From NCBI GenBank assembly GCA_029959285.1, contig JASCOE010000001.1:434001-498000 (forward strand): a stretch of 64,000 nucleotides of DNA, read 5' to 3'. Below are positions 20,743 to 43,612 of the stretch, in pieces (within the stretch, counting starts at the first letter, position 1; each line of letters opens with the position of its first letter). The notes under the pieces were generated by a model, which saw only the letters and a program-made list of their open reading frames with translations, made no database searches and was not told where the DNA came from. Both the position numbers and the translations under genes were made by a program. This DNA is from Flavobacteriaceae bacterium PS02337 (lineage in GTDB: Bacteria > Bacteroidota > Bacteroidia > Flavobacteriales > Flavobacteriaceae).

Positions 20743-20847
20743 AAAGGTGCTGAGATGCTAAGCTACTAAGATTCTAAGGTTTTTTATAAAGCCTAAAAAG
20801 AAAAACTTAGAACCTTAGTAGCTTAGAACCTTAGTAGCTTAAAAAAA
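20743..20847. repeat. Palindromic word-repeat spacer (CTAAG type)
   Basis: Fills the whole gap between the Nramp stop and the DtxR start. Left arm words CTAAG/CTACTAAG/TTCTAAG (20757-20785) pair with CTTAGTAGCTTA at 20814-20825 and again at 20830-20841; TAAGCTACTAAG (20759-20770) is an exact complement of both. The right arm ends 6 bases before the DtxR ATG. Confidence 0.75.
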
Positions 20848-21501
20848 ATGACCTTTTCAGAAGAAAATTATCTAAAATCGATATATCACCTAACTGCTGC
20901 TTTAGAAACTGAAGTCAGCACAAATGCTATTGCGGAAATTATGGAAACGAAAGCTTCCTCTGTAACCGATATGCTTAAAAAGCTGGCAGATAAAGATTTA
21001 GTTAATTATAAAAAATACCAAGGCGTTTCTTTAACCGAAAATGGGAAATTGGCAGCCAAAATGATTGTTAGAAAACATCGTTTGTGGGAAGTTTTTTTGG
21101 TTGAAAAACTAAATTTTAGCTGGGATGAAGTTCACGATATTGCGGAACAATTGGAACACATCAAATCAGAACAATTGATTAACCGTTTGGACGATTTTCT
21201 GGGAAATCCTACTGAAGATCCGCACGGCGACCCAATTCCAGATGCGAATGGAAGAATTATTAAGATTGAAAAACACCTTTTATCTGAATTGGAAGAGAAC
21301 CAAACTGGAGTTTGTGTCGGTGTAAAAGATACTTCATCAGAATTCTTGAAATATCTAGACAAACAAGGAATTGCTTTAGGTTCAAAAATCGAATTTATCT
21401 CTAAAGAATCTTTCGATTTATCAGTAAAAATCAAAGTGAATGAAAGAGAATTGTCTATTTCGAATAAAATTGCTTCTAATTTGTTTGTGAAGTTGGTTTA
21501 G
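20848..21501 (+). CDS. DtxR/MntR-family metal-dependent regulator
   Basis: A 217-residue iron- or manganese-responsive repressor. Residues 1-70 are the winged helix (SENYLKSIYHLTAAL, TKASSVTDMLKKLADKDLV), 71-140 the metal-binding and dimerisation domain with HRLWEVFLVEKL, HDIAEQLEH and DPHGDPIP, and 145-217 a FeoA-like SH3 domain. It follows the Nramp gene on the same strand, separated only by a palindromic spacer. The palindromes at 18801-18818 and 16759-16774 are its best candidate operators. Mn versus Fe specificity is not clear from sequence. Confidence 0.92.
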   Translation: MTFSEENYLKSIYHLTAALETEVSTNAIAEIMETKASSVTDMLKKLADKDLVNYKKYQGVSLTENGKLAAKMIVRKHRLWEVFLVEKLNFSWDEVHDIAEQLEHIKSEQLINRLDDFLGNPTEDPHGDPIPDANGRIIKIEKHLLSELEENQTGVCVGVKDTSSEFLKYLDKQGIALGSKIEFISKESFDLSVKIKVNERELSISNKIASNLFVKLV

Positions 21502-21531
21502 TGAAGATTTTATTTTTTAAAACTCCTTAAT

Positions 21532-22230
21532 TTATCTTCCAGCTTCAACCCAAGGAATATTAAATAACCCTTTAAATACATAAATCGTTACATTCCCACC
21601 TACTTGCAATTCATTGTAGACATCTTTATCTATTGTCAATTTTATTTTTTCTGATTTTTTTTCTACTGATACAAATTCGATATCATATGATTTGATTCCT
21701 GTACTTTGAATACGTTTATGAATTACTGTTGAAGTAAAAATTTGAGGCTCTGATTTGTCAAAAACACAATTAAAACCTATAATTATACCAAAAGAATATA
21801 TGAATGAAAAAAGTAAAACTCTAAGTGTAGTTCTATATCTATTCTCAATTTCTAAATACGATCTATCACCAATAAAAAACATTCCTGAAAAAAGAATTGT
21901 TACTATAGCAACAAGAAACCACACATTAGAATAATCCGTTAGATTAAAATCAGAATACATCCTAAATGCAAAAACCACAGCAGGGAAAAAAACTGGAAGT
22001 GCATTCGGATTAGAACTATTTCTTTTTGCTTCTATTTTAATGACTCCATTTGATAGTCTTACAAGTAATATTCCAATAATTGGAATTAAAAGACTTGCTA
22101 TTAACATATAATTGTAATAGCCAGGAAATTTAAGAATCCAAATTACAATTAATACACTTATGTAATTTATGATTTTGGTAATTATACGTGCTTTTGTAAA
22201 AAATTTACTTTTTAAATCAACTAAATTCAT
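21532..22230 (-). CDS. Unknown membrane protein, short paralogue
   Basis: A 232-residue protein I do not recognise. The start is set at the ATG at 22228-22230 (MNLVDLKSKFF); the longer frame would overlap the upstream gene by over 100 bases. Six or so hydrophobic helices are followed by a soluble C-terminal end of about 65 residues. It is clearly paralogous to the C-terminal two thirds of the upstream gene: shared NCxFDKSEPxxF, DYSNxW, YNxLQVGxxVxxYxFKGxxxIPWV. The gap to the upstream gene is 7 bases, so they are one transcript and arose by tandem duplication. Confidence 0.75.
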   Translation of the reverse strand: MNLVDLKSKFFTKARIITKIINYISVLIVIWILKFPGYYNYMLIASLLIPIIGILLVRLSNGVIKIEAKRNSSNPNALPVFFPAVVFAFRMYSDFNLTDYSNVWFLVAIVTILFSGMFFIGDRSYLEIENRYRTTLRVLLFSFIYSFGIIIGFNCVFDKSEPQIFTSTVIHKRIQSTGIKSYDIEFVSVEKKSEKIKLTIDKDVYNELQVGGNVTIYVFKGLFNIPWVEAGR

Positions 22231-22237
22231 CTTAACA

Positions 22238-23479
22238 TTACCTTTTATAATCAACAACAATCCAAGGAATATCCAATCTCCCCTTAAAGCGATACACAGA
22301 AACTTTGTCACCAACTTGGAGGTTATTGTATAAATCAGAGTTAACTGAAACTTTTTCAACTTCAATTTTATTTCCCCAAGGAGATAATTTCAGATCGTAT
22401 GAAGTACTTTTACGTCCACCACTTATTGTCTTTTCAAGAACTTGTGATCCAAACATTTCAGGTTCTGATTTATCGAATGCACAATTAGTTGTTACAACAG
22501 CTCCGTATCCGTAAGCAAAAATAAAAACCGCAATACTTAAAATTGTAAAATATTCTTTTCCTTTTTGAAAAGATAATTCTTTATTGCCAATGATTAATAT
22601 TGCTGTCAAAACTACAGCAATTAGAATCGAAGGAAGCCATATATTGGAATAGTCATCAATCGAAAAATCTAAAATTGCACGTAAAGCCAATACAATTCCT
22701 GGAATTATTATAGCACCAATAGCAGATGGATATGCGCTTCCTTTTTCAGCATCAATTCTTATTAATCCCTTCCAGAATTTTATTACTGAAATAGTGATTA
22801 ATGGCAAAGCAATACATGCTATCAATTCATACTTGTAAGGCTTAGGAAAAAAGAACATCCAAACGGCTAAAACAATACCTGCTCCGTTTAATATATTCGC
22901 TGTTAAACGTGCGTTCTTTAATTTACCTTGCCTTTCTTCAATAGATAATCCAAAATCATTGTTTTTCAAAATCTCTTTCTCTTCATTTTGATACTTTTCT
23001 TGAGCCTCTTGATTTTTTTTCAAATCAAGATTTTCAATACTTGAAGTCAATTGGAATTTTAAATCATCTATATTTTCTATTAAATTACTAATTGTAATAT
23101 CCTTTTTGTTATAAGATTCTTTCGAAAGAACACCTATATACTTTACTACAGATCGTGGTATTACAACATCATTAAAGCCTTTAATTTCTTCAAATTTTAA
23201 TTCTCGTTTACCCAATAAACTAATTGAAATTATCGATTCACCTGTAATAATTATTTTTCTTTTCTTAGTAGATAATATTGCCATTATCATAAAAGCAATC
23301 ATTACAATAAACAGCATTGGCAGCCACAAACCCGGCATAGATGCATGCATTTGTTCAGTAATTGCATTAAAAGGAGGAAGTATAAGAGCAATTGTCAATC
23401 CACCATAAAGCACCATCACAAGTGATGTTAAAATATAAATTAATATTCTTAATCCTTTTCTGACTCTGTATTCTTTCAT
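22238..23479 (-). CDS. Unknown membrane protein, long paralogue
   Basis: A 413-residue protein of unknown function. Two N-terminal transmembrane helices (about 10-32 and 48-68) precede a soluble beta/coiled region with EEIKGFNDVVIPR and an acidic coiled-coil-like stretch (about 130-190). Further helices follow from about 190 to 330, then a soluble end. From about residue 190 it matches the shorter paralogue downstream. The N-terminal region resembles PH-like domains placed after two helices in other Bacteroidota proteins, but no motif settles it. Confidence 0.75.
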   Translation of the reverse strand: MKEYRVRKGLRILIYILTSLVMVLYGGLTIALILPPFNAITEQMHASMPGLWLPMLFIVMIAFMIMAILSTKKRKIIITGESIISISLLGKRELKFEEIKGFNDVVIPRSVVKYIGVLSKESYNKKDITISNLIENIDDLKFQLTSSIENLDLKKNQEAQEKYQNEEKEILKNNDFGLSIEERQGKLKNARLTANILNGAGIVLAVWMFFFPKPYKYELIACIALPLITISVIKFWKGLIRIDAEKGSAYPSAIGAIIIPGIVLALRAILDFSIDDYSNIWLPSILIAVVLTAILIIGNKELSFQKGKEYFTILSIAVFIFAYGYGAVVTTNCAFDKSEPEMFGSQVLEKTISGGRKSTSYDLKLSPWGNKIEVEKVSVNSDLYNNLQVGDKVSVYRFKGRLDIPWIVVDYKR

Positions 23480-23573
23480 TTTAAAAACACTTTAAATTTT
23501 TGCAAAAATATTGCTGTTTAAAATGCTTAAATGCCTGTAACCGATTTAATACTATTAAAAAAAGACAAAAAAG

Positions 23574-23604
23574 AACCCGTAAAACTATTTTAGAATTACG
23601 GGTT
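23574..23604 (-). terminator. Intrinsic terminator after the 23639-24160 gene
   Basis: AACCCGTAA (23574-23582) pairs with TTACGGGTT (23596-23604). On the minus strand the hairpin is followed by a long T-rich run, matching termination of the upstream secreted-protein gene. Confidence 0.75.
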
Positions 23605-23638
23605 GAAATTTTATTTGACTAAAAAGATTATTTTTTAT

Positions 23639-24160
23639 TTAGTCTTTTATGCTATAAAGTATCTTTTGAAAATCTCCTTTAAACTTGTCTTTATTTTCCT
23701 TTGAAGACCAAGAGAAAACTTTATAAAATGCTTTCGGAGTTTCTGCGATTCCAATTAAATAATAAATTTCCATATTGGCTTCTTTATCAAAAAGAACAAC
23801 ATCTGTTTCTAGAAAATTAGTTTCATTGATTTTTTTTGAAACTGTAGAACTCATCGATTTTTTCTCTTCTTCTTTTAGAAAATCTTTCATAAAGTCGTCA
23901 TTAAACTCATTTATAGAATTATAATTTAATTCAACCAAACGTAAATCTTCTTTTAAATCATAAATAATGAATCCATAAACCTCTTTTACTTCGCTTTTAT
24001 ATTCAATTGCAGAGTCTCCATTTAGTCCGACAGTTTTATTCATATAATCTGGAAGACTTACATTAAAAGTATGACCGGCTTTGAATTCTTTCATTTTTGT
24101 TTGAGCAGAAATCGTTGCTGTAGTTAAAGCGATTATAAAAAGAGTAATTATTTTATTCAT
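23639..24160 (-). CDS. Secreted protein of unknown function
   Basis: A 173-residue protein with a signal peptide (MNKIITLFIIALTTATISAQ) and a beta-alpha domain that starts FKAGHTFNVSLPDYM and ends FKGDFQKILYSIKD. This pattern is like small PsbP/DUF-type periplasmic proteins in which an N-terminal sheet precedes a final helix, but I do not recognise the family. It is 32 bases downstream of the 24193-24591 gene, so co-transcription is likely, and it is followed by a terminator. Confidence 0.75.
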   Translation of the reverse strand: MNKIITLFIIALTTATISAQTKMKEFKAGHTFNVSLPDYMNKTVGLNGDSAIEYKSEVKEVYGFIIYDLKEDLRLVELNYNSINEFNDDFMKDFLKEEEKKSMSSTVSKKINETNFLETDVVLFDKEANMEIYYLIGIAETPKAFYKVFSWSSKENKDKFKGDFQKILYSIKD

Positions 24161-24192
24161 ATAAGTTTCATTATTAATGGTTAAATCTTTAT

Positions 24193-24591
24193 TTATACAA
24201 TTCCCTTCTCAATCATTTCTAACATTACTGGAGAAGCATTTTTAAAAGTTGGCGGTTGTTCTATAATACTTCCCGCGTTCTTTTTATTTACTTTGAAAGT
24301 AAGATCATTTTCTGTTGTAAAAAGCAAAGCCGTCAAAAACGGATTTTTAATATAAGTTCCTAAAACTAATAAAGCTTCCTCTAAAGTATGAATACTTTCA
24401 ATTTCTTCAGTTTTATAACGCGTTGTTAGTGAAATCGAAAACGTATTGTCTTCATTCAAAACTAGTCTGAAATAGATATTTTTAATTTCTGTATCGCCCA
24501 TCGTTTTGGCCAAAGTTAGTTTTGCGAAAGTTCCTGCTTGAATACTTTCTTTAACTCGTTCACAAAAAAGGGCAAATATTGGTTCGTACAT
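24193..24591 (-). CDS. Conserved hypothetical cytoplasmic protein
   Basis: A 132-residue soluble protein with no signal peptide or membrane helix. It has alternating sheet and helix (TKLTLAKT-like start, IYFRLVLNEDNTFSISLTTRY, LLFTTENDLTFKVNKK) and ends PVMLEMIEKGIV. I do not recognise it. The start ATG (24589-24591) lies directly after the word-repeat spacer at 24592-24774, and the next gene follows after 32 bases. Confidence 0.68.
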   Translation of the reverse strand: MYEPIFALFCERVKESIQAGTFAKLTLAKTMGDTEIKNIYFRLVLNEDNTFSISLTTRYKTEEIESIHTLEEALLVLGTYIKNPFLTALLFTTENDLTFKVNKKNAGSIIEQPPTFKNASPVMLEMIEKGIV

Positions 24592-24774
24592 TTTTTTTTA
24601 AGATTCTAAGTTGCTGAGATACTAAGGTTCTAAGTTTTTAAAACCTTTGTCTATAATATTTAACCGCAAAGGTCGCAAAGATTTACGCAATGTTCGCTAA
24701 GATTTTTATTTTCTTTGTGTGCTTTGCGTAATCCCTTGCTCCCGATAGCTATCGGGATTGCGGTTAAAAAAAAA
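24592..24774. repeat. Composite palindromic spacer (CTAAG words, CGCAAAG words, GATAGCTATC core)
   Basis: Fills the gap between the enoyl-CoA hydratase stop and the next start. From 24600 it shows CTAAG words. TTTAACCGCAA near 24658 pairs with TTGCGGTTAAA near 24758; inside lie CGCAAAGGTCGCAAAG words and their complement GCTTTGCG (24721-24728). At the inner right is the perfect 18-bp palindrome TCCCGATAGCTATCGGGA (24740-24757). The CGCAAAG part reappears at 56870-56900. Confidence 0.72.
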
Positions 24775-25557
24775 TTATTTTCCTGTAAATTCGGCTTTAC
24801 GTTTTTCTAAAAAAGCTGTTGTTCCTTCTTTAAAATCGGCAGTTCCGAAGCATTTTCCGAATGATTTTATTTCGACATCAAAACCATTTTTACCGTCAGT
24901 AAAATTAGCATTGATTGCTTTTATTGCTTTTGCGATAGCGAAAGGAGCATTTTTAATGATTTTTTGAGCAATTACATTTGTAAAAGATAAAAGTTCGGCT
25001 TGCGACACAACGTGATTTACCAAACCGTATTGTTTGGCTTCTTCTGCAGAAATCATTGCTGCTGTCATAATCATTTCCATCGCACGGCCTTTTCCGACTA
25101 ATTGCGGTAAACGTTGCGTTCCTCCGTAACCTGGAATTAATCCTAAAGTAACTTCTGGAAGTCCCATTTTTGCATTATCAGAAGCAATTCTAAAATGACA
25201 AGCCATTGCCAATTCTAATCCGCCGCCAAGAGCAAAACCGTTGATTGCAGCAATAACCGGCTTTTTAAGTCCTTCAATAAAATCAAAAAGAGATTCTTGT
25301 CCTTCGGCAGCCAATTGTGCGCCTTCTATAATAGTATAATTTGCAAATTCTGAAATATCAGCTCCAGCTACAAATGCTTTTTCTCCGCTTCCTGTCAAAA
25401 TAATAACACGGACATCATCATTTTTACCTAATATTTTAATCGCTTTACTCAAATCGCTAATTGTCGCTTTATTGAGCGCATTCAATTTTGTCGGTCTGTT
25501 TATCGTAATAGTCGCGATATTTTCTTCAATAGAAATTAAAATATTTTCGTAGTTCAT
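24775..25557 (-). CDS. Enoyl-CoA hydratase/isomerase (crotonase) family protein
   Basis: A 260-residue crotonase-fold enzyme, probably hydrating enoyl-CoA in fatty acid or amino acid breakdown. The start is ATG at 25555-25557; the longer frame overlaps the kinase gene. Visible are the oxyanion-hole segments KAFVAGADISEF and INGFALGGGLELAMACH, and the two catalytic acid positions in GLPEVTLGLIPGYGGTQRL, matching true enoyl-CoA hydratases. It is 10 bases downstream of the histidine kinase gene, an unusual pairing. Confidence 0.93.
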   Translation of the reverse strand: MNYENILISIEENIATITINRPTKLNALNKATISDLSKAIKILGKNDDVRVIILTGSGEKAFVAGADISEFANYTIIEGAQLAAEGQESLFDFIEGLKKPVIAAINGFALGGGLELAMACHFRIASDNAKMGLPEVTLGLIPGYGGTQRLPQLVGKGRAMEMIMTAAMISAEEAKQYGLVNHVVSQAELLSFTNVIAQKIIKNAPFAIAKAIKAINANFTDGKNGFDVEIKSFGKCFGTADFKEGTTAFLEKRKAEFTGK

Positions 25558-25567
25558 GACGGTTTTT

Positions 25568-27037
25568 TTATGAGTTGGTAATAGGTAAAGAAACTGTAAA
25601 AGTGGTTTCTTTTCCGTAAGTTGACTCAAAGGTAATTGTTCCTTTGTAATTTTCGATAATGTTTTTTATAATTCCTAAACCAAGTCCCATACCGCTGGTT
25701 TTGGTTGTAAATTTTGGTTCGAAAATTCTGCCTATATCTTGTTTTTGAATTCCAATTCCGTTGTCTTTTACAGCGATTTCAACATTATTGTTTCGTCTTT
25801 TCACCGTAACCACAATCGATTTTTGAAATTGACTTTCGGGAATTGCTTGTGTAGCATTTTTAACCAAATTTGTAATCACACGAATCAATTGCGTTCGATC
25901 CATTTTCGAAATAATTTCTTCTTCGTCACTTTCGAAAGAGATATATTCTTCGTTGAAAATATCCAAAGCCAATTCGACAACCTCAACTACATTCAACGTT
26001 TCATTTTGTTGTGCCGGCATTGAAGCAAAGTTCGAAAATGCCGAAGCAACTGCTGTCATCGTATCAATTTGCTGAATTAAAGTTTCGGAGTAATCATTCA
26101 TTTTTTGCTTTACATCTGGAGCTGAAGGATCAAACTTTCGTTGAAAACTCTGAACCGTTAATCGCATCGGCGTAAGCGGATTTTTAATTTCGTGCGCGAC
26201 TTGTTTTGCCATTTCGCGCCAAGCTTCTTCACGTTCGCTTTGCGCTAATTTAATCGCACTTGTTTCGAGTTTTTCTACCATTCCGTTATAAGCTTTTATC
26301 AAGAAATTGACTTCTTTACTATTGGCTTCTAAAACAATTTTCTCGTTTTTCTGATCCAAATTGGTTTCTTCTAAACGATCTGAAATGGTTTTTAATGATT
26401 TTGTAATATAAGTTGAAAGGAAATATGCCAGCGCGAAAGCCACAATCAACATAAAAGAATAAACCTGACTTAAACGAATCAGGAAAGTATTCAACTCGTT
26501 ATCGTAATAACCGTCGTCTTCTAAATAAGGAAGATTTAAAACGCCGAGCGGTTTAAATTTTTCGTCTTTTATTAAACTATAAGAAGAACGATTTTTAACT
26601 CCGTCAATGGTTTTAATGTCTACAAATCGTTTTTCGATGGAAGAACGAACTAATTTTAAAATATATTCTGGAATTGGCGGAGGCGCTTTGTCAACGGCAA
26701 AAGACTCTTTGGAAGATTTCAGCAGTTTCCCGTCAAGACTATAAATATTGATTTCAATTTTATGAATCTGCGCTAATTCGTGAATTTTATCTTTAAAAAT
26801 TAAATCTAAATTTCCCGTCTTAAGCGGATAAGTTGTCGTTGAAAGAACATAGTTAATGTGTTCTTTTACGGCATTTTCTTTTCGTTCTAAACGTTCTTGA
26901 TGGTATTCTTTTGCTTCCGTCTTAAACTGAATAATCGAAATGGAAGCCAATAAAAAAGATGCTACAACAATCAATACAATCATCGACAGGAAAATCCTGG
27001 TTCGAAGTGAAAGCATTGTCATTTTGATGTTCAGCAT
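25568..27037 (-). CDS. NtrY-like sensor histidine kinase
   Basis: A 489-residue membrane kinase. Two transmembrane helices (about 14-36 and 190-210) frame a periplasmic sensor region of about 150 residues, then a HAMP-type linker. The HisKA motif is EMAKQVAHEIKNPLTPMRLT, with phospho-acceptor His282. The ATPase domain has the N box NLVKNATQAI, DNGIGI and the G box MGLGLGI. The HEIKNPLTPM form is typical of NtrY-class kinases. No response regulator is adjacent: hemJ is upstream and the crotonase gene is downstream, so it is an orphan. Confidence 0.92.
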   Translation of the reverse strand: MLNIKMTMLSLRTRIFLSMIVLIVVASFLLASISIIQFKTEAKEYHQERLERKENAVKEHINYVLSTTTYPLKTGNLDLIFKDKIHELAQIHKIEINIYSLDGKLLKSSKESFAVDKAPPPIPEYILKLVRSSIEKRFVDIKTIDGVKNRSSYSLIKDEKFKPLGVLNLPYLEDDGYYDNELNTFLIRLSQVYSFMLIVAFALAYFLSTYITKSLKTISDRLEETNLDQKNEKIVLEANSKEVNFLIKAYNGMVEKLETSAIKLAQSEREEAWREMAKQVAHEIKNPLTPMRLTVQSFQRKFDPSAPDVKQKMNDYSETLIQQIDTMTAVASAFSNFASMPAQQNETLNVVEVVELALDIFNEEYISFESDEEEIISKMDRTQLIRVITNLVKNATQAIPESQFQKSIVVTVKRRNNNVEIAVKDNGIGIQKQDIGRIFEPKFTTKTSGMGLGLGIIKNIIENYKGTITFESTYGKETTFTVSLPITNS

Positions 27038-27112
27038 AATTTTTAGTTTACAGTCGCAGTCACAGTTTTCAGTGTCAGAGTCGAAACTGTGACTGTAAAC
27101 TGCGACTGAATA
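27038..27112. repeat. Palindromic word-repeat spacer (CAGTCGCAG type)
   Basis: Fills the gap between the hemJ stop and the kinase start. TTTACAGTCGCAGTCACAGTT (from 27047) pairs imperfectly with AACTGTGACTGTAAACTGCG (27085-27104) and the following ACTG. The same words build the unrelated locus at 36306-36373. The arm nearest the kinase begins 9 bases before its ATG. Confidence 0.75.
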
Positions 27113-27661
27113 CTATTTTTTTTCTCGTATACGTTTGTAAAAACGGAATCCTAGCATAATTAAAACCGAAAACAATACAATTCCGATTACGCCGAAAATC
27201 CAGTTGATGGCACTTTTTAAAACTACTAAAAAAACAACCGCAAACAAAATAATCGTTGCACCTTCATTCCATAAACGCATAAAATTATTGGAATATTTTA
27301 CCTCATCATTTTGCAATTGTTTAAAAATCTGATGGCATTTTCCGTGATATAAATACAAAAGGAAAACGAAGCATAACTTTACATGCATCCACGACATTTT
27401 GATCCAAACACTTCCTGCATCGGTAAAAAGCAACATCCAAAAAGCAAAAATACTTGCCAAAACCGCCGACGGCCATGTAATAATGTACCACAAACGATAG
27501 GCCATTATTTTGTATTGCGCCTGAAGAATTTCTTTTTCTGGCGAAGGTTTTTCATTGGCTTCAATTTGATACACAAACAAACGCACAATATAAAACAAAC
27601 CTGCAAACCAAGTGATGACAAAAATAAGATGCAGTGATTTTAGATAGTTATAATATTCCAT
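27113..27661 (-). CDS. hemJ: HemJ-type protoporphyrinogen IX oxidase (CopD family)
   Basis: Four-to-five-helix membrane protein, 182 residues, of the HemJ/UPF0093 group that oxidises protoporphyrinogen IX to protoporphyrin IX. The N-terminal SLHLIFVITWFAGLFYIVRLF carries the conserved His near residue 11, and MSWMHVKLCFVFLLYLYHGKC carries the second conserved His and Lys. It lies directly after hemH on the same strand, and no hemG or hemY is in the window, which supports the heme role over copper transport. A word-repeat spacer separates it from hemH. Confidence 0.88.
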   Translation of the reverse strand: MEYYNYLKSLHLIFVITWFAGLFYIVRLFVYQIEANEKPSPEKEILQAQYKIMAYRLWYIITWPSAVLASIFAFWMLLFTDAGSVWIKMSWMHVKLCFVFLLYLYHGKCHQIFKQLQNDEVKYSNNFMRLWNEGATIILFAVVFLVVLKSAINWIFGVIGIVLFSVLIMLGFRFYKRIREKK

Positions 27662-27746
27662 TATTATTTTGTTTCAGGTTTCAGGTTTCAGGTTTCAAGT
27701 TAATCAACTTTAAGAAAAACTTGAAACTTTAAACCTGAAACAAATT
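27662..27746. repeat. Palindromic word-repeat spacer (GTTTCAG type)
   Basis: Fills the hemH-hemJ gap. GTTTCAG is repeated in tandem from 27671, ending in TTTCAAGTT (to 27701). It pairs with AACTTGAAAC (27718-27727) and CCTGAAAC (27734-27741). The 18-mer GAAACTTTAAACCTGAAA (27723-27740) occurs again at 56932-56949. The element starts 9 bases before the hemJ ATG and ends 5 bases from the hemH stop. Confidence 0.78.
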
Positions 27747-29838: not shown

Positions 29839-30288
29839 CTTTTGATTTACTTTATTCAAGTTATTATTTCATTTTTTAAGAAACGAATAATTTGACCTTT
29901 CAAAATTAAATCTTTTTGATGGTTTATCGTTTACTTGCTTCTAAATTTATAAATTCTTTATTGTTTTTGACTTTCTAAACCAATAATTTCTAGACCGCAT
30001 CTTCCAAAATTACTCCAATTTTAAAGCGTTTATTTCTATAAATAACCATTTGATTTTAAAGATAATAACTCCAAATTATCATTAAAACACAAATTAGATC
30101 AGCTTAATTGAAGGGTCAATTTATTTTTTCATCACATTTTTTACTCTTTTCAGCACTATTCTATTGAATTCCAGTCGACAAGTATTTAAATCAATTCTAA
30201 ACTAACGAATTGTCACTTTTTAACAAAACCTACATTAGAAAGTGCTCGTAAGTATCAAAAAAACTTAACTAATTTTTAAGATACCACT
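29839..30288. other. Long divergent intergenic region
   Basis: 450 bases between the AraC gene and the 30289 gene. I can support only the AraC -7 element (plus-strand CAAAATTA, 29901-29908). The remainder is AT-rich, with no convincing ORF, hairpin array or RNA gene. The promoter of the 30289-31325 pair must lie here, but I see no perfect TAnnTTTG close to its start. Confidence 0.5.
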
Positions 30289-30723: not shown

Positions 30724-30740
30724 CCTTTAAATATTTTACA

Positions 30741-31325: not shown

Positions 31326-31338
31326 TATCTTTTCTTTT

Positions 31339-31374
31339 AAGCGCTATTTTAAGAAATTTAAAATAGCGCTTTTT
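31339..31374 (+). terminator. Intrinsic terminator of the globin-lipoprotein gene
   Basis: AAGCGCTATTTTAA (31339-31352) and TTAAAATAGCGCTT (31358-31371) form a 14-bp perfect stem with a 5-base loop, followed by a T run. It isolates the globin gene pair from hemA. Confidence 0.88.
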
Positions 31375-31686
31375 ATTCAATATAATTATTTGTGCTAAAA
31401 TAACGCCAGTCTAAAAATTAAATAATTTCGAAAATCTTATAATTTAATTTTGAACTCATAGCGATATTTTTTTTTGAAATTTTTTTAGTGATTTGTTCTT
31501 GGTTATTTAGAACCACTCTAAACAAAACATTTCAAACGACTTGATTTTACTGAAAAAGTACTGATTTCTACCCAAATAGGCCTACTAATAATTAAAAAAA
31601 CATACAGCGACATAAAAAGTACTTTTAGCGTTATTTTTATCGATGGTATAGTAATAATTTTGTTGCACTTTTATGAAAGTGAATTT
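31375..31686 (+). promoter_or_regulatory. hemA upstream region and promoter
   Basis: A perfect -7 element TAATTTTG is at 31655-31662, 24 bases before the hemA ATG. AAAAAGTACT occurs at 31553-31562 and again at 31614-31623, where it forms the 12-bp palindrome AAAAGTACTTTT. These could be activator sites, for example for the nearby AraC regulator. No RNA gene is seen in the remaining AT-rich sequence. Confidence 0.55.
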
Positions 31687-32937
31687 ATGGAAAACAATAA
31701 CGTACCGAAACACCTTTATTTTTATTCAGTTGGTCTGAGTTATAAAAAAGCTGATGCTGAGGTCAGAGGTCAATTTAGTTTGGATGCTGTTGCGAAAACT
31801 CGCTTACTGGAACAAGCTAAAAATGATGGAATAGAAAGTTTAATAGTTACTTCAACTTGCAACAGAACCGAAATTTACGGTTTTGCTGAACATCCTTTTC
31901 AATTAATAAAATTGATTTGCGATAACAGTAATGGTTCTGTTGATGCCTTTCAAAAAGTGGGTTTTGTTTACAAAAATCAAGAAGCAATCAATCATTTATT
32001 TCGCGTAGGAACTGGTTTAGACAGTCAGATTTTGGGCGATTTTGAAATTATATCTCAAATTAAAACCTCTTTTGCACATTCAAAATCAATGGGTTTAGCC
32101 AACGCTTTTATGGAAAGATTGGTGAATGCTGTAATTCAGGCGAGCAAAAGAATTAAAACAGAAACAGAAATTAGTTCTGGAGCGACTTCAGTTTCTTTTG
32201 CATCAGTTCAGTACATTCTTAAAAATGTAGAAGATATCAGCAATAAAAATATTTTGCTTTTCGGAACTGGAAAAATTGGAAGAAATACTTGTGAAAATTT
32301 AGTAAAACATACTAAAAACGAACACATTACTTTAATCAACAGAACTAAAGATAAAGCGGAGAAATTAGCTGGAAAATTAAATCTGATTGTTAAAGATTAT
32401 TCTGAATTACATTTAGAACTTCAAAAAGCTGATGTTGTGGTTGTAGCAACCGGCGCCCAAAATCCAACGGTTGATAAAGCAATTTTGAATCTTAAAAAAC
32501 CTTTATTGATTCTGGATTTATCTATTCCGAAAAACGTTCATGAAAATGTTGAGGAATTAGAAGGTGTAACTTTAATTCACATGGATTATTTGTCTCAATT
32601 GACAGATGAAACTTTAGAAAACAGAAAATTACACATTCCAGCTGCAGAAGCAATTATAGAAGATATAAAAGAGGAATTTCTTATTTGGATGAAAGGCCGA
32701 AAATTTGCGCCAACCATCAATGCTTTAAAAGACAAATTGAATGCTATAAAAGTTTCTGAATTGGATTTTCAAAGCAAAAAAATTGCCGATTTTAATGAAG
32801 CGCAAGCAGAAATAATCAGCAATAGAATCATTCAAAAAATCACTACACATTTTGCCAATCATTTAAAAGACGACGACACCATGGTCGATGAAAGCATCGA
32901 ATGGATCGAAAAAGTCTTCAAAATAAAAGCATCTTAG
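31687..32937 (+). CDS. hemA: Glutamyl-tRNA reductase
   Basis: First committed step of C5 heme synthesis: reduces glutamyl-tRNA to glutamate-1-semialdehyde with NADPH. About 416 residues from the ATG at 31687. The longer TTG-started form would begin within the -7 element. The catalytic Cys lies in VTSTCNRTEIYGF; the NADPH-binding motif is LLFGTGKIGRNTCENL; the C-terminal dimerisation helices end FKIKAS. The enzyme needs hemL for 5-aminolevulinate, and hemL is not in this window. First gene of the hemA-(GxxExxY)-hemC-hemD-hemE-(unknown)-hemF run. Confidence 0.96.
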   Translation: MENNNVPKHLYFYSVGLSYKKADAEVRGQFSLDAVAKTRLLEQAKNDGIESLIVTSTCNRTEIYGFAEHPFQLIKLICDNSNGSVDAFQKVGFVYKNQEAINHLFRVGTGLDSQILGDFEIISQIKTSFAHSKSMGLANAFMERLVNAVIQASKRIKTETEISSGATSVSFASVQYILKNVEDISNKNILLFGTGKIGRNTCENLVKHTKNEHITLINRTKDKAEKLAGKLNLIVKDYSELHLELQKADVVVVATGAQNPTVDKAILNLKKPLLILDLSIPKNVHENVEELEGVTLIHMDYLSQLTDETLENRKLHIPAAEAIIEDIKEEFLIWMKGRKFAPTINALKDKLNAIKVSELDFQSKKIADFNEAQAEIISNRIIQKITTHFANHLKDDDTMVDESIEWIEKVFKIKAS

Positions 32938-33093
32938 TTTTTAATTTAAACCATTAAGATATTAAGGAAATTAAGACCAATCTTTGTCAAGAGAATTAAG
33001 TCACGCTGCAACACAAAGCTTAATAATCTTAAAATTCGACACAAAAAGCTTAATTCTCTTAATGCCCTTAATGGTAAAAAACAAAAAAGTTCT
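32938..33093. repeat. Palindromic word-repeat spacer (ATTAAG type), copy 1
   Basis: Fills the hemA-GxxExxY gap. AAACCATTAAGATATTAAG (32948-32966) pairs with the CTTAATTCTCTTAATGCC and CTTAATGGT words ending at 33075. The 15-mer CAATCTTTGTCAAGA (32978-32992) is the exact reverse complement of 33544-33558 in copy 2. Confidence 0.78.
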
Positions 33094-33498
33094 ATGACAA
33101 AAAAAGAGGTTACACAATTAGCTTATGAAATTACGGGTTTGGCTATTAAAGTGCATAAAGCTTTGGGACCAGGACTTTTAGAAAGCATATATGAGAGGTG
33201 CCTTAAATATGAATTAGAACGAAACGGATATGATGTAAAACAACAATTAGTTGTCAAAATTGATTATTACGATCTTGAATTTGAATCTGATTTAAGAATA
33301 GATTTACTTGTTAATGATTGTGTAGTTGTTGAATTAAAAGCGATAGAAAATATATTGCCAATTCACGAAGCGCAATTATTGACTTATATGAAATTATTAC
33401 AAAGACCTCAAGGCTTATTGATAAATTTCAACACAACGAACATAACAAAATCAATGAAACCTCTTGTAAACGATCACTTTGCAAGACTAATTGATTAA
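33094..33498 (+). CDS. GxxExxY family protein inserted in the heme operon
   Basis: A 134-residue protein of the GxxExxY family, named for its motif, here Gly27-Leu-Leu-Glu30-Ser-Ile-Tyr33 (GPGLLESIYERCL). The region DLRIDLLVNDCVVVELKAIE has the Asp...Glu-x-Lys layout of a PD-(D/E)XK nuclease-like core. The biochemical role is not established. It splits hemA from hemC and is flanked by two related palindromic spacers, which suggests late insertion as a cassette. No frameshift is present. Confidence 0.87.
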   Translation: MTKKEVTQLAYEITGLAIKVHKALGPGLLESIYERCLKYELERNGYDVKQQLVVKIDYYDLEFESDLRIDLLVNDCVVVELKAIENILPIHEAQLLTYMKLLQRPQGLLINFNTTNITKSMKPLVNDHFARLID

Positions 33499-33598
33499 TA
33501 AAATATTAAACCATTAAGATATTAAGAAAGTTAGGCTTAATTTTCTTGACAAAGATTGACTTAATTCTCTTAATGCCTTAATGGTAACATAAAAAAAC
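33499..33598. repeat. Palindromic word-repeat spacer (ATTAAG type), copy 2
   Basis: Fills the GxxExxY-hemC gap. It shares AAACCATTAAGATATTAAG (33508-33526) and the right-arm words CTTAATTCTCTTAATGCC and TTAATGGTAA with copy 1 at 32938, but its middle part (TCTTGACAAAGATTG, 33544-33558) is inverted. It ends about 11 bases before the hemC ATG. Confidence 0.78.
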
Positions 33599-34522
33599 AT
33601 GACTGAAAAAACAATCAGAATTGGAACGCGCGATAGCGAATTAGCACTTTGGCAAGCACATAATGTCGAGAAAAAACTAAATGATTTAGGTTATAAAACC
33701 TCAATTGTTGCCGTAAAATCTCAAGGCGATATTATTCTTGATAAACCTCTTTATGAATTAGGAATTACTGGAATTTTCACTAAAACGCTAGACATCGCAA
33801 TGATCAATGGCGATATTGATATTGCGGTACATTCTATGAAAGATGTTCCAACGGCTTTACCTAAAGGAATTGTTCAGGCGGCTGTTTTATCAAGAGCAAA
33901 TGTTCTGGATATTTTAGTTCATAAAGGAAATCCTGATTTTGCGAATCCAAGTACAATTGCGACCGGAAGTTTACGTCGTCAGGCGCAATGGTTTAATAAA
34001 TATCCAAATCATACCGTTGTTGATTTACGTGGAAATGTAAACACGCGCATGCAAAAATTACAAGACAATAATTGGGACGGTGCTGTTTTTGCTGCTGCAG
34101 GTTTGGAACGAATTAACTTAAAACCAGAAAATTATATCAATTTAGATTGGATGATTCCCGCGCCGGCACAAGGTGCAATGCTTGTTGTGGCAATGGAAAA
34201 TGACAATTATACTTTGGATGCACTTTCGCAGTTGAATGATATTGAAACTGAAATTTGTACTTACATCGAACGTCAGTTTTTAAGAACCCTTGAAGGTGGA
34301 TGTACTGCGCCGATTGGATCTTTGGTAACTTATAATGAAGATGAAGATACGCTACATTTTCAAGGTGTTTTGCTTTCTATCGACGGAAAACAGAAACTGG
34401 AAATCAACAAAACGGTTGATATTTCAGAATGGAAAAAATTAGGTTACAATTCAGCTCAAGAAATTTTGAATAATGGCGGAACTGAATTGATGCAGCAAAT
34501 CAAAGAATCTTTGAAGAAATAA
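33599..34522 (+). CDS. hemC: Hydroxymethylbilane synthase
   Basis: Joins four porphobilinogen units into hydroxymethylbilane. 307 residues; begins KTIRIGTRDSELALWQAHNV. Catalytic Asp is in AVHSMKDVPTALP, substrate-binding Arg in TGSLRRQAQW and DLRGNVNTRMQK, and the dipyrromethane cofactor Cys in LEGGCTAPIGS. Its stop overlaps the hemD start by one base (TAATG), so translation is coupled. Confidence 0.96.
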   Translation: MTEKTIRIGTRDSELALWQAHNVEKKLNDLGYKTSIVAVKSQGDIILDKPLYELGITGIFTKTLDIAMINGDIDIAVHSMKDVPTALPKGIVQAAVLSRANVLDILVHKGNPDFANPSTIATGSLRRQAQWFNKYPNHTVVDLRGNVNTRMQKLQDNNWDGAVFAAAGLERINLKPENYINLDWMIPAPAQGAMLVVAMENDNYTLDALSQLNDIETEICTYIERQFLRTLEGGCTAPIGSLVTYNEDEDTLHFQGVLLSIDGKQKLEINKTVDISEWKKLGYNSAQEILNNGGTELMQQIKESLKK

Positions 34523-35187
34523 TGGCAAATCCGATTCAGATATTATCTACTAAAATATTATCTCCTCTTCATAAAGAAGAGTTGACAAAAGTTGGCATCG
34601 ATGTAATCGAAGCTGATTTCATTAAAACCGAAAACAAAACTTTCGAACTTAAAAACCTCAACGAAAGTTTAATTTTCACCAGTCAAAATGCCGTTCATAG
34701 CGTTTTAGCAAATCCAAAATCGGAAGAGCTTAAAAGCAAAAATGTGTATTGCGTCGGGTTAAAAACTAAGATTCTTTTATCTGAAAACGGATTTAATGTT
34801 GTGGCTTATACTGGTTACGCTTCAGATCTTGCTGAAATTATTACTTTAATTTATGGAAATGAAAGTTTTACTTTTTTCAGCGGAAATTTAAGAAGAGAAA
34901 CTTTGCCAGAATCTTTAAAAGAAGCTGGAATAAAATTCAATGAAATCCAAGTTTACGAAACAACGTTGCAACCTCAAAAAATAAAAGCAAATCCAGAGGC
35001 AATATTATTTTTTAGTCCATCTGGAGTTAATAGCTATTTGAGAGACAACGCAATAAACAAACAAGTTTGTTTCTGCATTGGAGATACAACAGCTGAAGCT
35101 TTATTAAAAGTCACAAAAAATATTATCATCGCAGATCAGCCCACAATCGAAGACGTGATCGAAGATGTAATTAACGAATATAAGTAA
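34522..35187 (+). CDS. hemD: Uroporphyrinogen-III synthase
   Basis: Closes and inverts the D ring of hydroxymethylbilane. 221 residues in two Rossmann-like halves. The family is poorly conserved in sequence; visible here are LIFTSQNAVHSVL, NVYCVGLKTKILL, IQVYETTLQPQ and ILFFSPSGVNSYL, the usual landmarks. One-base overlap with hemC and position between hemC and hemE make the call firm. Confidence 0.92.
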   Translation: MANPIQILSTKILSPLHKEELTKVGIDVIEADFIKTENKTFELKNLNESLIFTSQNAVHSVLANPKSEELKSKNVYCVGLKTKILLSENGFNVVAYTGYASDLAEIITLIYGNESFTFFSGNLRRETLPESLKEAGIKFNEIQVYETTLQPQKIKANPEAILFFSPSGVNSYLRDNAINKQVCFCIGDTTAEALLKVTKNIIIADQPTIEDVIEDVINEYK

Positions 35188-35279
35188 GCAATACGCTATA
35201 GGCAGTAAGCCATAAGCAAATAAATTATTGACAAAAACAGCTTAAAGCCTAAAGCTTAAAGCCTAAAGCAAAAAAACAA
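35188..35279. repeat. Palindromic word-repeat spacer (TTAAAGC type)
   Basis: Fills the hemD-hemE gap. Right side: two tandem 14-mers TTAAAGCCTAAAGC (35242-35255 and 35256-35269). Left side: GCTATAGGCAGTAAGC around 35194-35210, an imperfect complement. It ends 10 bases before the hemE ATG. Confidence 0.7.
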
Positions 35280-36305
35280 ATGTTAAAAAACGACTTATTC
35301 TTAAGAGCACTAAAAGGAGAAACTGTTCAACGTCCGCCAGTATGGATGATGCGTCAAGCAGGAAGATATTTACCTGAATTTAGAGAACTTCGTGATAAAT
35401 ATGATTTCTTTACACGTTGCGAAACTCCAGAATTAGCTGCTGAAATTACTGTACAGCCGATTCGTAGAATTGCTCCAGATGCAGCGATTTTATTTTCAGA
35501 TATTTTGGTAGTGCCTCGCGCAATGGGAATTCACGTTGAATTGAAAGACAATTTAGGTCCAATTATTCCAAATCCGATTCGTTCTTTAGCAGACGTTCAC
35601 AAAGTTTTTGTTCCAGATGTAAATGAAACTTTAGGTTACGTTTTTGATGCTGTAAAATTGACAAAAGAAATGTTGAACGACGAAGTACCATTAATTGGTT
35701 TTGCTGGTTCGCCTTGGACAATTTTCTGTTATGCTGTTGAAGGAAAAGGTTCTAAAAGTTTTGATACTGCAAAAGGTTTCTGCTTTTCTAACCCAGCTGC
35801 GGCGCATACGTTATTACAAAAAATTACAGATACTACTATTTTATACTTAAAAGAAAAAGTAAAATCGGGAGTAAATGCAGTTCAGATTTTTGATTCTTGG
35901 GGAGGAATGCTTTCTCCTGTTGATTATCAAGAATTTTCATGGAAATACATCAACCAAATTGTTGACGCTTTAGCTGATATTACGCCAGTTATTGTTTTCG
36001 GAAAAGGTTGCTGGTTCGCACTTGGCGAAATGGGTAAAAGTAAAGCTTCTGCGTTAGGAGTAGATTGGACTTGTTCGGCTAGAAATGCGCGTTATTTATC
36101 TGGCGGAAACATTACTTTACAAGGAAATTTTGATCCATCAAGATTGCTTTCTCCAATTCCAACTATCAAGAAAATGGTTCACGAAATGATCGATGAGTTC
36201 GGAAAAGACAAATATATCGTAAATTTAGGTCACGGAATTTTACCTAATATACCTGTAGATCACGCAAAAGCGTTTATTGACGCGGTGAAGGAATACGGGA
36301 ATTAG
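35280..36305 (+). CDS. hemE: Uroporphyrinogen decarboxylase
   Basis: Removes four carboxyl groups to give coproporphyrinogen III. 341 residues, starting with the signature [20 protein letters not shown]. Also visible: [14 protein letters not shown] with the catalytic Asp, [31 protein letters not shown] and [16 protein letters not shown]. Cytoplasmic. In the heme operon between hemD and a small unknown gene. Confidence 0.97.
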
Positions 36306-36373
36306 TCTTTAGTTTTCAGTCGCAGTTTTCAGATTTTACTGCGACTGAAAACTGCGACTGAAAACTAAAAAAC
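36306..36373. repeat. Palindromic word-repeat spacer with perfect 25-bp arms (CAGTCGCAG type)
   Basis: Fills the hemE-unknown gene gap. The arms at 36308-36332 and 36345-36369 are exact reverse complements over 25 bases, each made of TTTTCAGTCGCAG words, with a 12-base loop. The left arm begins 2 bases after the hemE stop and the right arm ends 4 bases before the next ATG. The words match those at 27038-27112. Confidence 0.88.
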
Positions 36374-36754
36374 ATGCTCAACAAAGGTTTACGAGATGAA
36401 GAAAAAATAAGAATTGATAACGTTCTCAAAACGTTACAAACTCTTATTTATGTGCCTTATCCTTTAAGTCATTTACAAAAATCTGATATTGAAAATCAAT
36501 TAAAAGAATTCGGATTAAATACTGAAAGTTTAATTGAATATTCAAATGAAGATTTAATCTCTTTGCTAATTCGCCTTCATTTTGATTGGGAACAATTAGA
36601 GCAATTTGCTGATATTTTAATAGAATTTTCAAAAGAAGAAAACCATAGTTTTGAAGAAAAAGCTTTGGCACTTTACCAATATATTCAACAGGAAAGCAAG
36701 GTTTTTTCTTTTGGAATAAATTCTAAAATTGCTTCGGCGAAAGCCAAAAAATAA
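36374..36754 (+). CDS. Unknown small helical protein between hemE and hemF
   Basis: 126 residues, cytoplasmic, nearly all helical and acidic (DFWEQLEQFADILIEF-like heptads), with no Cys and no motif I recognise. The middle part, NEDLISLLIRLHFDWEQLEQ, looks the most ordered. It is 5 bases before hemF and after hemE on the same strand, so it is co-translated with heme enzymes. It may be a partner protein or simply a hitch-hiker. Confidence 0.75.
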   Translation: MLNKGLRDEEKIRIDNVLKTLQTLIYVPYPLSHLQKSDIENQLKEFGLNTESLIEYSNEDLISLLIRLHFDWEQLEQFADILIEFSKEENHSFEEKALALYQYIQQESKVFSFGINSKIASAKAKK

Positions 36755-36759
36755 TTACA

Positions 36760-37662
36760 ATGAAAGACAAATTTTACGCATACATACAACAATTACAAGA
36801 TCAAATCTGCGCTGGATTAGAAGCTGTTGACGGAACTGCAAAATTCCGTGAAGATCTTTGGAAACGTCCTGAAGGCGGAGGCGGAAGAACACGTGTTATT
36901 GAAAATGGAGCAGTTTTCGAAAAAGGCGGTGTAAACATTTCTGCTGTTCACGGAAAACTTCCAGAGACAATGCAAAAAATGTTCAATGTTGGCGAAGCAG
37001 ATTTCTTTGCCTGCGGATTAAGTTTGGTTTTACACCCAAAAAATCCAATGACACCAACAGTTCATGCTAATTGGCGTTATTTTGAAATGTATGACGAAAC
37101 TGGAAAAGTAATCGAACAATGGTTTGGTGGCGGACAAGATTTAACGCCTTATTATTTGTTTGAAGAAGATGCAAAACACTTTCACCAAACTTGTAAAACG
37201 GCTTGCGATAAACATAATCCAGATTTTTATCCAAAATATAAAAAACAATGCGATTCTTATTTTTGGAATGCACATCGAAATGAAGCCCGCGGTTTAGGCG
37301 GTTTATTCTTCGATTATTGCAAAGCAAATGAAACAATGTCAATGGAAAATTGGTACGATTTTGTAACCGAAGTCGGAAATAGTTTCCTTGAAGCTTACGT
37401 TCCAATTGTAGAAAGAAGAAAAAATCTTTCTTATACACCAGAACAAAAAACTTGGCAAGAAATCCGTCGTGGACGTTATGTTGAGTTTAATTTGGTTCAT
37501 GACAAAGGAACTTTATTCGGCTTAAAAACAAACGGAAGAATTGAAAGTATTTTAATGAGTTTGCCTCCGCACGTACAATGGGTTTATGATCATCATCCAG
37601 AAGTAGGAAGTGAAGAGGAGAAATTGATAAATGTATTGCAAAATCCGATTGATTGGATTTAG
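36760..37662 (+). CDS. hemF: Oxygen-dependent coproporphyrinogen III oxidase
   Basis: Oxidatively decarboxylates coproporphyrinogen III using O2. 300 residues with the family motifs EGGGGRTRVIENGAVFEKGG, HANWRYFEM, WFGGGQDLTPYY and the C-terminal GRYVEFNLVHDKGTLFGLKT. Presence of hemF rather than hemN in this operon fits aerobic life. Ends before a candidate terminator. Confidence 0.97.
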   Translation: MKDKFYAYIQQLQDQICAGLEAVDGTAKFREDLWKRPEGGGGRTRVIENGAVFEKGGVNISAVHGKLPETMQKMFNVGEADFFACGLSLVLHPKNPMTPTVHANWRYFEMYDETGKVIEQWFGGGQDLTPYYLFEEDAKHFHQTCKTACDKHNPDFYPKYKKQCDSYFWNAHRNEARGLGGLFFDYCKANETMSMENWYDFVTEVGNSFLEAYVPIVERRKNLSYTPEQKTWQEIRRGRYVEFNLVHDKGTLFGLKTNGRIESILMSLPPHVQWVYDHHPEVGSEEEKLINVLQNPIDWI

Positions 37663-37818
37663 TCTAAAAAATTTATTCAACAGATAGAAACATAGATTTA
37701 AAGATATATCTTAGGGGTGATTTTAGAAAATCATAATTTTTTCACATAATACTATGTGAAATATTTTGAATGAAATGTCTTTTAAAATTATATAAAACCA
37801 TGTTTCTATGTGTTTAAA
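37663..37818. repeat. Palindromic word-repeat spacer (AGAAACATAG type) with inner hairpins
   Basis: Between hemF and the DUF4421-like gene. GATAGAAACATAG (about 37684-37696) pairs with CATGTTTCTATGTG (37799-37812), the latter spanning the ATG of the next gene. Inside are TGATTTT-AG-AAAATCA (37718-37733, followed by T-rich sequence, a candidate terminator for the heme operon) and TTCACATA-ATAC-TATGTGAA (37741-37760). Confidence 0.65.
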
Positions 37819-43606: not shown

Positions 43607-43612
43607 TAGCTT

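Follow-up and report, generated by a model that had tools for sequence, protein, structure and literature searches.

The haem operon examined here lies in a stretch of 64,000 nucleotides of Flavobacteriaceae bacterium PS02337 (GenBank assembly GCA_029959285.1, contig JASCOE010000001.1, positions 434,001 to 498,000), which we call the window and which corresponds to C11:434001-498000 of a 5.70-Mb genome called G000. It is the part of the window richest in palindromes, and Pfam identifies in it hemA (31660), a GxxExxY gene (33094), hemC, hemD, hemE, a gene at 36374, and hemF. Many gaps between a stop codon and the next start codon are occupied here by imperfect palindromes whose arms are tandem copies of short words, and our reading, to which we give a probability of about 0.6, is that these gaps hold hairpin cassettes like the intervening sequences (IVSs) of 23S rRNA, docked in stop-to-start slots and carrying, as an option, a gene in the loop. 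The palindromes of the window itself look like gene-less copies of this IVS-like element. We observed the anatomy of the cassettes, the sharing of words between coding copies and copies lacking an open reading frame (ORF) within one genome, the link between word family and clade of loop protein, and the turnover of whole cassettes at fixed slots.

Palindromes in Stop-to-Start Gaps

An earlier note on this DNA had named ten gaps as filled by word palindromes and had proposed that they may be mobile spacers or RNA insulators. When the palindrome score of each gap was compared with 500 dinucleotide shuffles, and its word periodicity with 200, six of the ten (20743, 27038, 27662, 32938, 33499, and 36306) were not equalled by any of the 500 shuffles, whereas 35188 and 56788 scored modestly, the former with a word periodicity reached by 0/200 shuffles, and 37663 was near chance. 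Gap 24592 is strong only by folding and word periodicity, its palindrome score not being significant (97/500 shuffles) because a lone CTAAG arm adjoins a CGCAAAG palindrome, and its resemblance to the CGCAAAG arms of the GxxExxY gene at G000:C52:38284 was judged by eye. The best word periods in the significant window gaps are 7-16, and the perfect 25-bp arms reported at 36308-36369 are indeed there. The earlier note overlooked the loop gene at 33094-33498, located between two of its named gaps. The possibility of a known RNA family was ruled out, the window having no Rfam match at gathering score.

Relatives were represented by 80 named loci, nearest by one window protein, nearly all from Flavobacterium and each at most 20 kb long. 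The same-strand gaps of these loci and of 464 kb of this contig yielded 315 palindromes, and the 222 of them counted here as word palindromes are everything that failed the patterns of repetitive extragenic palindromes (REPs), orthologues included (121 clusters). In these 222 the placement between stop and start codons was confirmed, with a median of 4 nt from stop to arm and 10 nt from arm to start, and the palindrome covering 86% of the gap. That the hairpins sit where ribosomes load is right as to position only, given that the stem stops a median of 10 nt before the start codon and an A-rich stretch stays free. The earlier note considered same-strand gaps only; in the 464 kb, with REPs and terminators counted in, palindromes occupy 39/187 same-strand, 20/41 convergent, and 4/48 divergent gaps.

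Loop Genes between Inverted Arms

Coding copies of the cassette have, between inverted word arms, a gene of either the GxxExxY nuclease-like family (PF13366) or the four-helix-bundle family (PF05635, the 23S rRNA intervening-sequence protein), and for both families, in the genus and across the phylum, most loci read as a word array in the 5' flank and its reverse complement in the 3' flank, reaching the next gene. We compared true pairs of 5' and 3' flanks of the loop genes with swapped pairs, a design chosen because per-locus shuffles are weak for short arms. The median flank score was 19 for true and 11 for swapped pairs at 29 GxxExxY loci of the genus, 18 vs. 11 at 30 four-helix loci of the genus, 15 vs. 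10 at 29 GxxExxY loci of the phylum, and 14.5 vs. 9 at 28 four-helix loci of the phylum (p 2.9e-7 to 1.6e-9 over the four Bacteroidota sets), the phylum-wide sets including some loci from the window's own genus or family. Scores of at least 16 were reached, in the same order, by 59%, 70%, 48%, and 39% of the loci, against 12.5% of 546 control genes of 90-220 aa from the hem loci, a set with no strand filter to which the GxxExxY genes of the hem loci also belong.

Among 1135 genes with usable flanks (1915 were called), inverted arms surrounded 20/23 GxxExxY genes and 78/1112 others, a scan that was blind to four-helix genes (0 by phmmer), yet one of its hits, at 189900 in the window genome, is a four-helix gene (PF05635, 50 bits). 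The 60 listed non-GxxExxY genes with inverted arms were sorted by eye into 34 of the REP-associated tyrosine transposase (RAYT) or Y1 type, 15 hemE, 6 orthologues of the window gene at 27113, and 5 others, including one four-helix gene; where read (L077), the orthologue of 27113 is flanked by two GTTTCAG palindromes.

The ratio of nonsynonymous to synonymous substitution (dN/dS) of the GxxExxY gene at the hemC slot is 0.038 (23 orthologues), which indicates strong purifying selection and compares with 0.033 for hemC in the same taxa, and purifying selection is weaker on the four-helix gene (0.145 in 7 CTAAG sequences and 0.102 in 8 CAAAG sequences). The nuclease signature D70, E80, K82 is conserved in 95% of 59 GxxExxY proteins. 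Genus-wide, PF13366 occurs in 50/61 genomes and PF05635 in 60/61. In passages of PMC8934634, GxxExxY appears as a gene adjoining a CRISPR-type reverse transcriptase.

Words Common to Coding and ORF-Less Copies

The window genome has 5 PF13366 and 7 PF05635 matches, and seven stretches were read in addition to the window. The four-helix gene at C55:74533 has CAGTCGCAG arms, and 18 ten-mers of its flanks recur in window gap 36306; the one at C55:171502 has CTAAG arms and shares 7 ten-mers with window gap 20743 and 16 with C11:376128; and the one at C11:223900 (PF05635) has GATTTTTGATTAACG arms with 24 ten-mers common to the ORF-less gap C11:121839. Two further four-helix genes have GTTGATGG arms (best match 13 ten-mers) and TTAATCG arms (17), and the GxxExxY gene at C52:38284 has CGCAAAG/CGCTAAG arms, with 12 ten-mers in its best ORF-less match. 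For six of the coding-copy word families, the closest ORF-less match has between 12 and 24 ten-mers in common with the coding copy. The GxxExxY gene with ATTAAG words is the window's own copy, and in the coding copy C11:526668 the arms are only partial. It is on these top matches that the weight rests, the counts of word sharing being weak. With the word families coming back as coding copies that carry a loop gene, the idea of a family of mobile spacers gains support.

Word Family Follows the Loop Protein

A slot upstream of a gene for a nucleoid-associated protein, which we take to be NdpA, was compared in 40 genomes. This slot holds four-helix genes with CTAAG words in some genomes, with CAAAG words in others, and another four-helix lineage with GTTTAAA. 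In further genomes it contains ORF-less palindromes, which belong to at least two additional families, or four-helix genes that are frameshifted or decayed, or else a gap that is short or of another kind. On the tree of the four-helix proteins (47 rows, from the NdpA slot and other sites), the word label changes 9 times against a shuffled mean of 25.5, with 0/200 shuffles as low, although only 36/47 rows differ and near-copies alone make labels cluster, and three CAAAG-labelled rows (L157, L163, and L178) carry other words by eye. On the tree of the upstream host gene, a quick tree in which one row (L254) rests on a misread upstream gene, the slot state changes 23 times against a shuffled 24.6 (43/200 as low). 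The genome G068 has CTAAG and G064, G072, and G006 have CAAAG, although the downstream protein is 99% identical over its first 200 residues.

Turnover at the Same Slots in Relatives

When the stop-to-start slots of the window are followed through up to 77 Flavobacterium species, the occupant is an unrelated cassette, a cassette with a gene, a REP/RAYT element, or just a short gap. The states were called by regular expressions, as were the words; a REP alone is required for the label REP_RAYT, and just three CAGT/ACTG for the label CAGTCGCAG, so that gene-bearing gaps can be mislabelled (e.g., L087). Between hemD and hemE, 27 of the 77 species have a REP, 23 an AAAGCC palindrome (the window's family), 23 a lone CTTTG word arm, and 4 something else. 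Between hemE and 36374, 31 have CAGTCGCAG, 31 a REP, accompanied by a RAYT gene or not, 12 GTTGATG, and 3 something else. Between hemA and hemC, ATATAAG was found in 36, ATTAAG with the GxxExxY gene in 23, ORF-less ATTAAG in 7, a short gap in 10, and another content in 1. In some close species pairs, such as L033 and L028, which are 5.8% apart from hemC to hemF, hemD is identical over its final 18 nt and hemE over its opening bases, with unrelated cassettes between them, and other close pairs have few base differences at the edges of the hemD-hemE slot. As to the comparison of relatives proposed in the earlier note, the same gaps do carry unrelated sequence, but this is mostly another palindrome or repeat, and such interchangeable cassettes in orthologous gaps support its mobile spacers.

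Placed on a tree of hemC and hemE, the states at hemD-hemE change 40 times (38.6 on average when shuffled), the hemE-36374 states 33 (shuffled 35.0; 53/200 as low), and the hemA-hemC states 28 times (shuffled 35.8; 0/200 as low), so this last slot retains tree signal. The share of species pairs differing in state at hemD-hemE is flat with rising divergence (0.80, 0.64, 0.71, 0.67, and 0.74, in bins of 10, 39, 469, 1178, and 1154 pairs). We found no linkage of state to the adjacent 150 nt in 76 taxa, either at hemD-hemE (p 0.60 and 0.53) or at hemE-36374 (p 0.20 and 0.27), and in the nearest 30 nt a weak linkage appears on one side of each (p 0.018 and 0.010, respectively). One slot, hemA-hemC, behaves like normal alleles, and the other two behave like nearly free-standing cassettes.

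The AAAGCC 3' arm at hemD-hemE is at least 90% conserved at all positions but one (22 taxa). Its exact 24-mer is present in the window genome at hemD-hemE and in G004 at a position fitting the same slot, and the window genome has six further copies with one or two mismatches. Two more exact copies lie elsewhere in G004 and one in G012, and therefore descent at the slot is unproved. At no more than two mismatches, the families recur across genomes (AAAGCC in 6/21 and CTTTG in 8/21).

Two side observations concern these slots. In L020, L055, and other relatives the hemE-36374 slot has CCTGCAAGGTTTTCAAAACCTTGTAGG-type REPs, often with a RAYT gene, and L020 keeps a CAGTCGCAG arm beside them. The lone CTTTG arm stands immediately before the hemE start (23/77, e.g., L022, L029, and L097), resembling the TAACTGA arrays before start codons, and no partner arm was found in the hemD stretch examined at three loci.

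Occurrence outside the Genus

The inverted-arm design recurs in Bacteroidota (p below 1e-6) and partly in other phyla. Azospirillum lipoferum has a four-helix gene inside its large subunit (23S) rRNA (RF02541, 1506 bits), flanked by CAGAGGACGG-type word arms whose score is 27 with the start moved downstream by hand and 10 with the first ATG, which falls within the arm. Among plasmid records, those of Sphingomonas, Nostoc, Aulosira, and Treponema have one arm or short arms only, that of Gemmatirosa has a whole palindrome on a single side, and in that of Calothrix PCC 7716 no arms are visible by eye.

A Sphingomonas plasmid (L211) has the order fabD-[GxxExxY]-fabG, the only word arm being upstream of the loop gene, and four-helix genes lie in cas6-[four-helix]-cas4 (L215, a Pseudanabaena plasmid) and cas10-[four-helix]-cmr3 (L220, a Picosynechococcus plasmid). 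The four-helix genes among cas genes may be passengers and not Cas accessories.

Alternative Explanations and Points against the Cassette Reading

We consider it unlikely that the palindromes arose anew at each gap by replication slippage with hairpin-templated correction at short repeats, with no mobile element involved and the loop genes as bystanders. The slight variation among tandem words and the drift of the arms in register are what slippage would give, and passages of PMC4476775 describe Nostoc trnL P6b stems that differ by 7-nt units. This explanation does not fit the occurrence of the same word families at several sites and in several genomes, as with AAAGCC and CTTTG above, nor the fact that the words track loop-protein clades and flank two specific protein families.

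Likewise improbable, in our judgement, is that the palindromes are regulatory RNA hairpins or insulators under selection on mRNA structure, separating cistrons, stabilising the transcript, or blocking translational coupling. Their tight placement, 4 nt past the stop and 10 nt ahead of the start, and the strong conservation of some arms across species, such as the AAAGCC 3' arm at hemD-hemE, agree with such a role, and in F. johnsoniae, according to parts of PMC6847099, initiation is tuned by secondary structure. Selection on an mRNA hairpin would favour G-U over A-C mispairs, and this is not what is seen on the mRNA strand, where G-U and A-C number 268 vs. 404 in the 222 palindromes, 152 vs. 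193 with one palindrome per cluster, and 81 vs. 92 in 61 coding copies; we therefore reject RNA-level selection, and the insulators of the earlier note find no support. The test leaves DNA-level or mutational causes. In addition, what is found in orthologous slots ranges from a palindrome or a REP to a single arm or merely a short gap, some species filling the hemD-hemE slot with a REP or a lone unpaired arm, and at both the NdpA slot and hemD-hemE the contents do not cluster by host phylogeny. Most of the A-C mispairs in the 222 palindromes have A in the 5' arm (259/404).

That the arms are REPs or bacterial interspersed mosaic elements (BIMEs) moved by RAYT (Y1) transposases is very improbable. 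Some of the same slots do contain REPs and RAYT genes, and the window has its own, but the RAYT-type genes whose flanks were read carry CCTGCAAGGTTTTCAAAACCTTGTAGG or GCTCCAGCGGAGC REPs and no word arms, which instead surround PF05635 and PF13366 genes, and we reject RAYT as the mover of the word arms. Intrinsic terminators, suggested by the many palindromic convergent gaps (20/41) and by ordinary terminators in some loops, are the least credible explanation and were rejected, given that A makes up 60% and T 18% of the 8 nt past the stem and that at least 5 T occur there in just 3 of the 190 word palindromes with at least 5 nt past the stem.

Several results weigh against the cassette reading itself or limit its reach. 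The strict per-locus shuffle test is passed by 19/29 GxxExxY loci of the genus, 19/30 four-helix loci of the genus, and 16/29 GxxExxY loci of the phylum (19/29, 19/30, and 21/29 with 130-nt flanks), and the GxxExxY gene of the window sits between two complete palindromes, not inside one loop. ORF-less gaps with at least 3 ten-mers of a coding copy are clearly over shuffled arms only for CAGTCGCAG (11 vs. 2.5) and CGCAAAG (7 vs. 1.9), with shuffled arms yielding 1.4 to 3.5 such gaps across families; palindrome-free gaps match as well (2 to 12 of 182 per word family), and for GTTTCAG, TTAAAGC, and AGAAACATAG no coding copy was present among the stretches read. A fully free swap of cassettes is opposed by the slightly greater closeness of same-state species overall (hemD-hemE p 0.004; hemE-36374 p 0.028) and by one hemD stretch, 450-600 nt from the slot, that is linked to state. 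At hemA-hemC the linkage is strong, since over the last 30 nt same-state pairs are 4% apart vs. 19%, and it weakens farther from the slot, and this linkage to flanking coding sequence means that ordinary recombination or descent explains much there. Neither a transposition event nor a target duplication was seen, nor any enzyme activity, target-site duplication not being assessable because whole gaps differ. A smaller effect is found in 15 plasmid records, 13 of them from outside Bacteroidota (median 11 for true and 8 for swapped pairs, p 4.7e-5), and the 70-nt shuffle test is passed by 5/15 (Bernardetia, Geminocystis, Picosynechococcus, Stanieria, and Calothrix brevissima). In Pseudanabaena (L215), Fusobacteria (L212), and Persicobacter (L214) the words upstream and downstream of the loop gene share one orientation, which is a direct-repeat form of the cassette design or something else.

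Comparison with Known Systems

The nearest known counterparts of the proposed cassettes are the IVSs of 23S rRNA, which, according to passages of PMC4990558, have complementary arms that form a stem, an S23p ORF, and a sporadic distribution, are excised as stem-loops by RNase III, and are described as horizontally transferred. The copy in Azospirillum 23S rRNA has word arms like the intergenic ones. Terminal complementary arms forming a stem are present in our elements too, also across a loop gene, and a PF05635 ORF occupies the loop of coding copies of the CAGTCGCAG, CTAAG, and other families in this genome, the window gaps being ORF-less. Unlike IVSs inserted in a helix of 23S or 16S rRNA, the window elements lie between protein genes, are mostly ORF-less, have arms made of tandem words of many families, and make use of a second protein family, GxxExxY.

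The short tandemly repeated repetitive (STRR) sequences of cyanobacteria are likewise intergenic and hairpin-forming, usually with 7-bp repeats, and their function is called unknown in passages of PMC2670836; in passages of PMC4476775 the Nostoc trnL P6b stem has the words TDNGATT or NNTGAGT, with the motif shifting repeatedly. STRRs differ in that no protein is tied to them in the parts of these sources that we cite, and the cassettes described here comprise many families of 6-11-nt words. The cyanobacterial four-helix genes between similar arms may point to one class with STRRs.

REP/BIME elements with RAYT share with the word cassettes their extragenic palindromes and their slots, but they are short fixed palindromes with a Y1 transposase instead of word arms with PF05635 or PF13366, and among the RAYT-type genes read no Y1 (PF01797) gene was flanked by copies of the word palindromes. 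Bacteroidetes TnpA-REP genes with atypical flanking structures are mentioned in passages of PMC6006769. The TAACTGA heptamer repeats of Beggiatoaceae, Cyanobacteria, and some Bacteroidetes are also word arrays a few nt before start codons, like the CTTTG single-arm state, but consist of a single word, of which one genome has 169 sets in direct and one in inverted orientation (passages of PMC4679880), whereas the words of the window gaps differ from it by eye and are inverted. Two four-helix proteins tested match bAvd, the Avd protein of diversity-generating retroelements, weakly (PF22296, E about 5e-7, below cut-off). Our literature search, which covered titles, abstract starts, and passages among the papers listed, with most subscription journals outside it, found no link of GxxExxY or four-helix-bundle genes to intergenic word palindromes, and searching with word strings gave nothing relevant.

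Proposed Mechanism and Significance

On our reading a cassette typically has a tandem 6-11-bp word as one arm and the reverse complement of that word as the other. Most copies have an empty loop, and in the rest the loop encodes either a GxxExxY PD-(D/E)XK nuclease-like protein or a member of the 23S rRNA intervening-sequence family of four-helix-bundle proteins. In the stop-to-start slot a cassette breaks no frame and leaves the A-rich start leader free. The loop protein may aid the spread of its own cassette family, the nuclease-like one by nicking or cutting in the style of homing and the helical one by binding the hairpin, and loops might later lose their gene and give rise to ORF-less copies. 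If RNase III cuts the transcribed stem as in rRNA IVSs, insertion would harm the operon little.

More broadly, and tentatively, since we regard it as possible and yet doubtful, rRNA IVSs, cyanobacterial STRR hairpins, and Bacteroidota word palindromes may form one cross-phylum class of selfish hairpin cassettes, with the four-helix-bundle and GxxExxY proteins as mobility proteins, the word family as a recognition code for each protein lineage, and the slots as shared docking sites through which cassettes pass from one species to another and take little flanking DNA with them. If the cassette reading is right, PF13366 and PF05635, two common orphan families whose names state no function, would gain a genomic home and a testable role, and the IVS would be extended from rRNA genes into ordinary operons. 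This would also explain the presence of such genes in operons for CRISPR, fatty acids, and haem, a setting in which they easily pass for members of the pathway, would offer an explanation for STRR-type hairpins, and would mean that spaces within conserved operons are exchangeable between species almost independently of the adjacent genes.

Features of the Window

The word palindromes and the loop gene of the window are collected in Table 1; the ATTAAG family is present at the hemA-hemC site in 30/77 relatives, 23 of these with the GxxExxY gene.

Table 1. Word palindromes and loop gene in the window, with shuffles scoring as well (of 500 for the palindrome, of 200 for periodicity).
Feature	Position	Strand	Evidence
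CTAAG word palindrome, ORF-less	20744..20840	+	score 52; z 9.8; 0/500
Compound gap: lone CTAAG arm adjoining CGCAAAG word palindrome (about 24660-24768)	24592..24774	-	fold z -6.9; periodicity 0/200
CAGTCGCAG word palindrome, ORF-less	27044..27112	-	z 5.6; 0/500
GTTTCAG word palindrome, ORF-less	27668..27744	-	z 7.1; 0/500
ATTAAG word palindrome, upstream of GxxExxY gene	32938..33087	+	z 4.8; 0/500
GxxExxY gene (PD-(D/E)XK nuclease superfamily), coding cargo, hemA-hemC	33094..33498	+	TIGR04256 137 bits; PF13366 131.5 bits
ATTAAG word palindrome, downstream of GxxExxY gene	33510..33585	+	z 5.3; 0/500
TTAAAGC (AAAGCC) word palindrome, hemD-hemE	35192..35258	+	z 2.7; 9/500; periodicity 0/200
CAGTCGCAG word palindrome, ORF-less, perfect 25-bp arms, after hemE	36308..36369	+	z 9.8; 0/500
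AGAAACATAG palindrome, weak and doubtful, after hemF	37686..37807	+	z 2.3; 16/500; periodicity not significant (64/200)
Nested GTTTCAG / CGCAAAG palindrome, moderate	56831..56954	-	z 3.0; 6/500; periodicity 13/200

On the same contig, the loops of the word palindromes in gaps 274112, 376128, 427081, and 430363 enclose an ordinary terminator-like hairpin. Elsewhere in the window, a Y1 transposase gene (10143-10577, minus strand; PF01797, 84 bits) lies beside an inverted pair of CCCACGGTTTCAACCGTGGG REPs at 10018-10113 and is apparently a RAYT with its REPs. A convergent gap contains a REP-like cluster of GTTCCGTAGGAACG repeats at 43607-43897, and at 16916-16957 there is a REP-like AAAGGGCTTTAGCCAAA inverted repeat, perfect over 17 bp.

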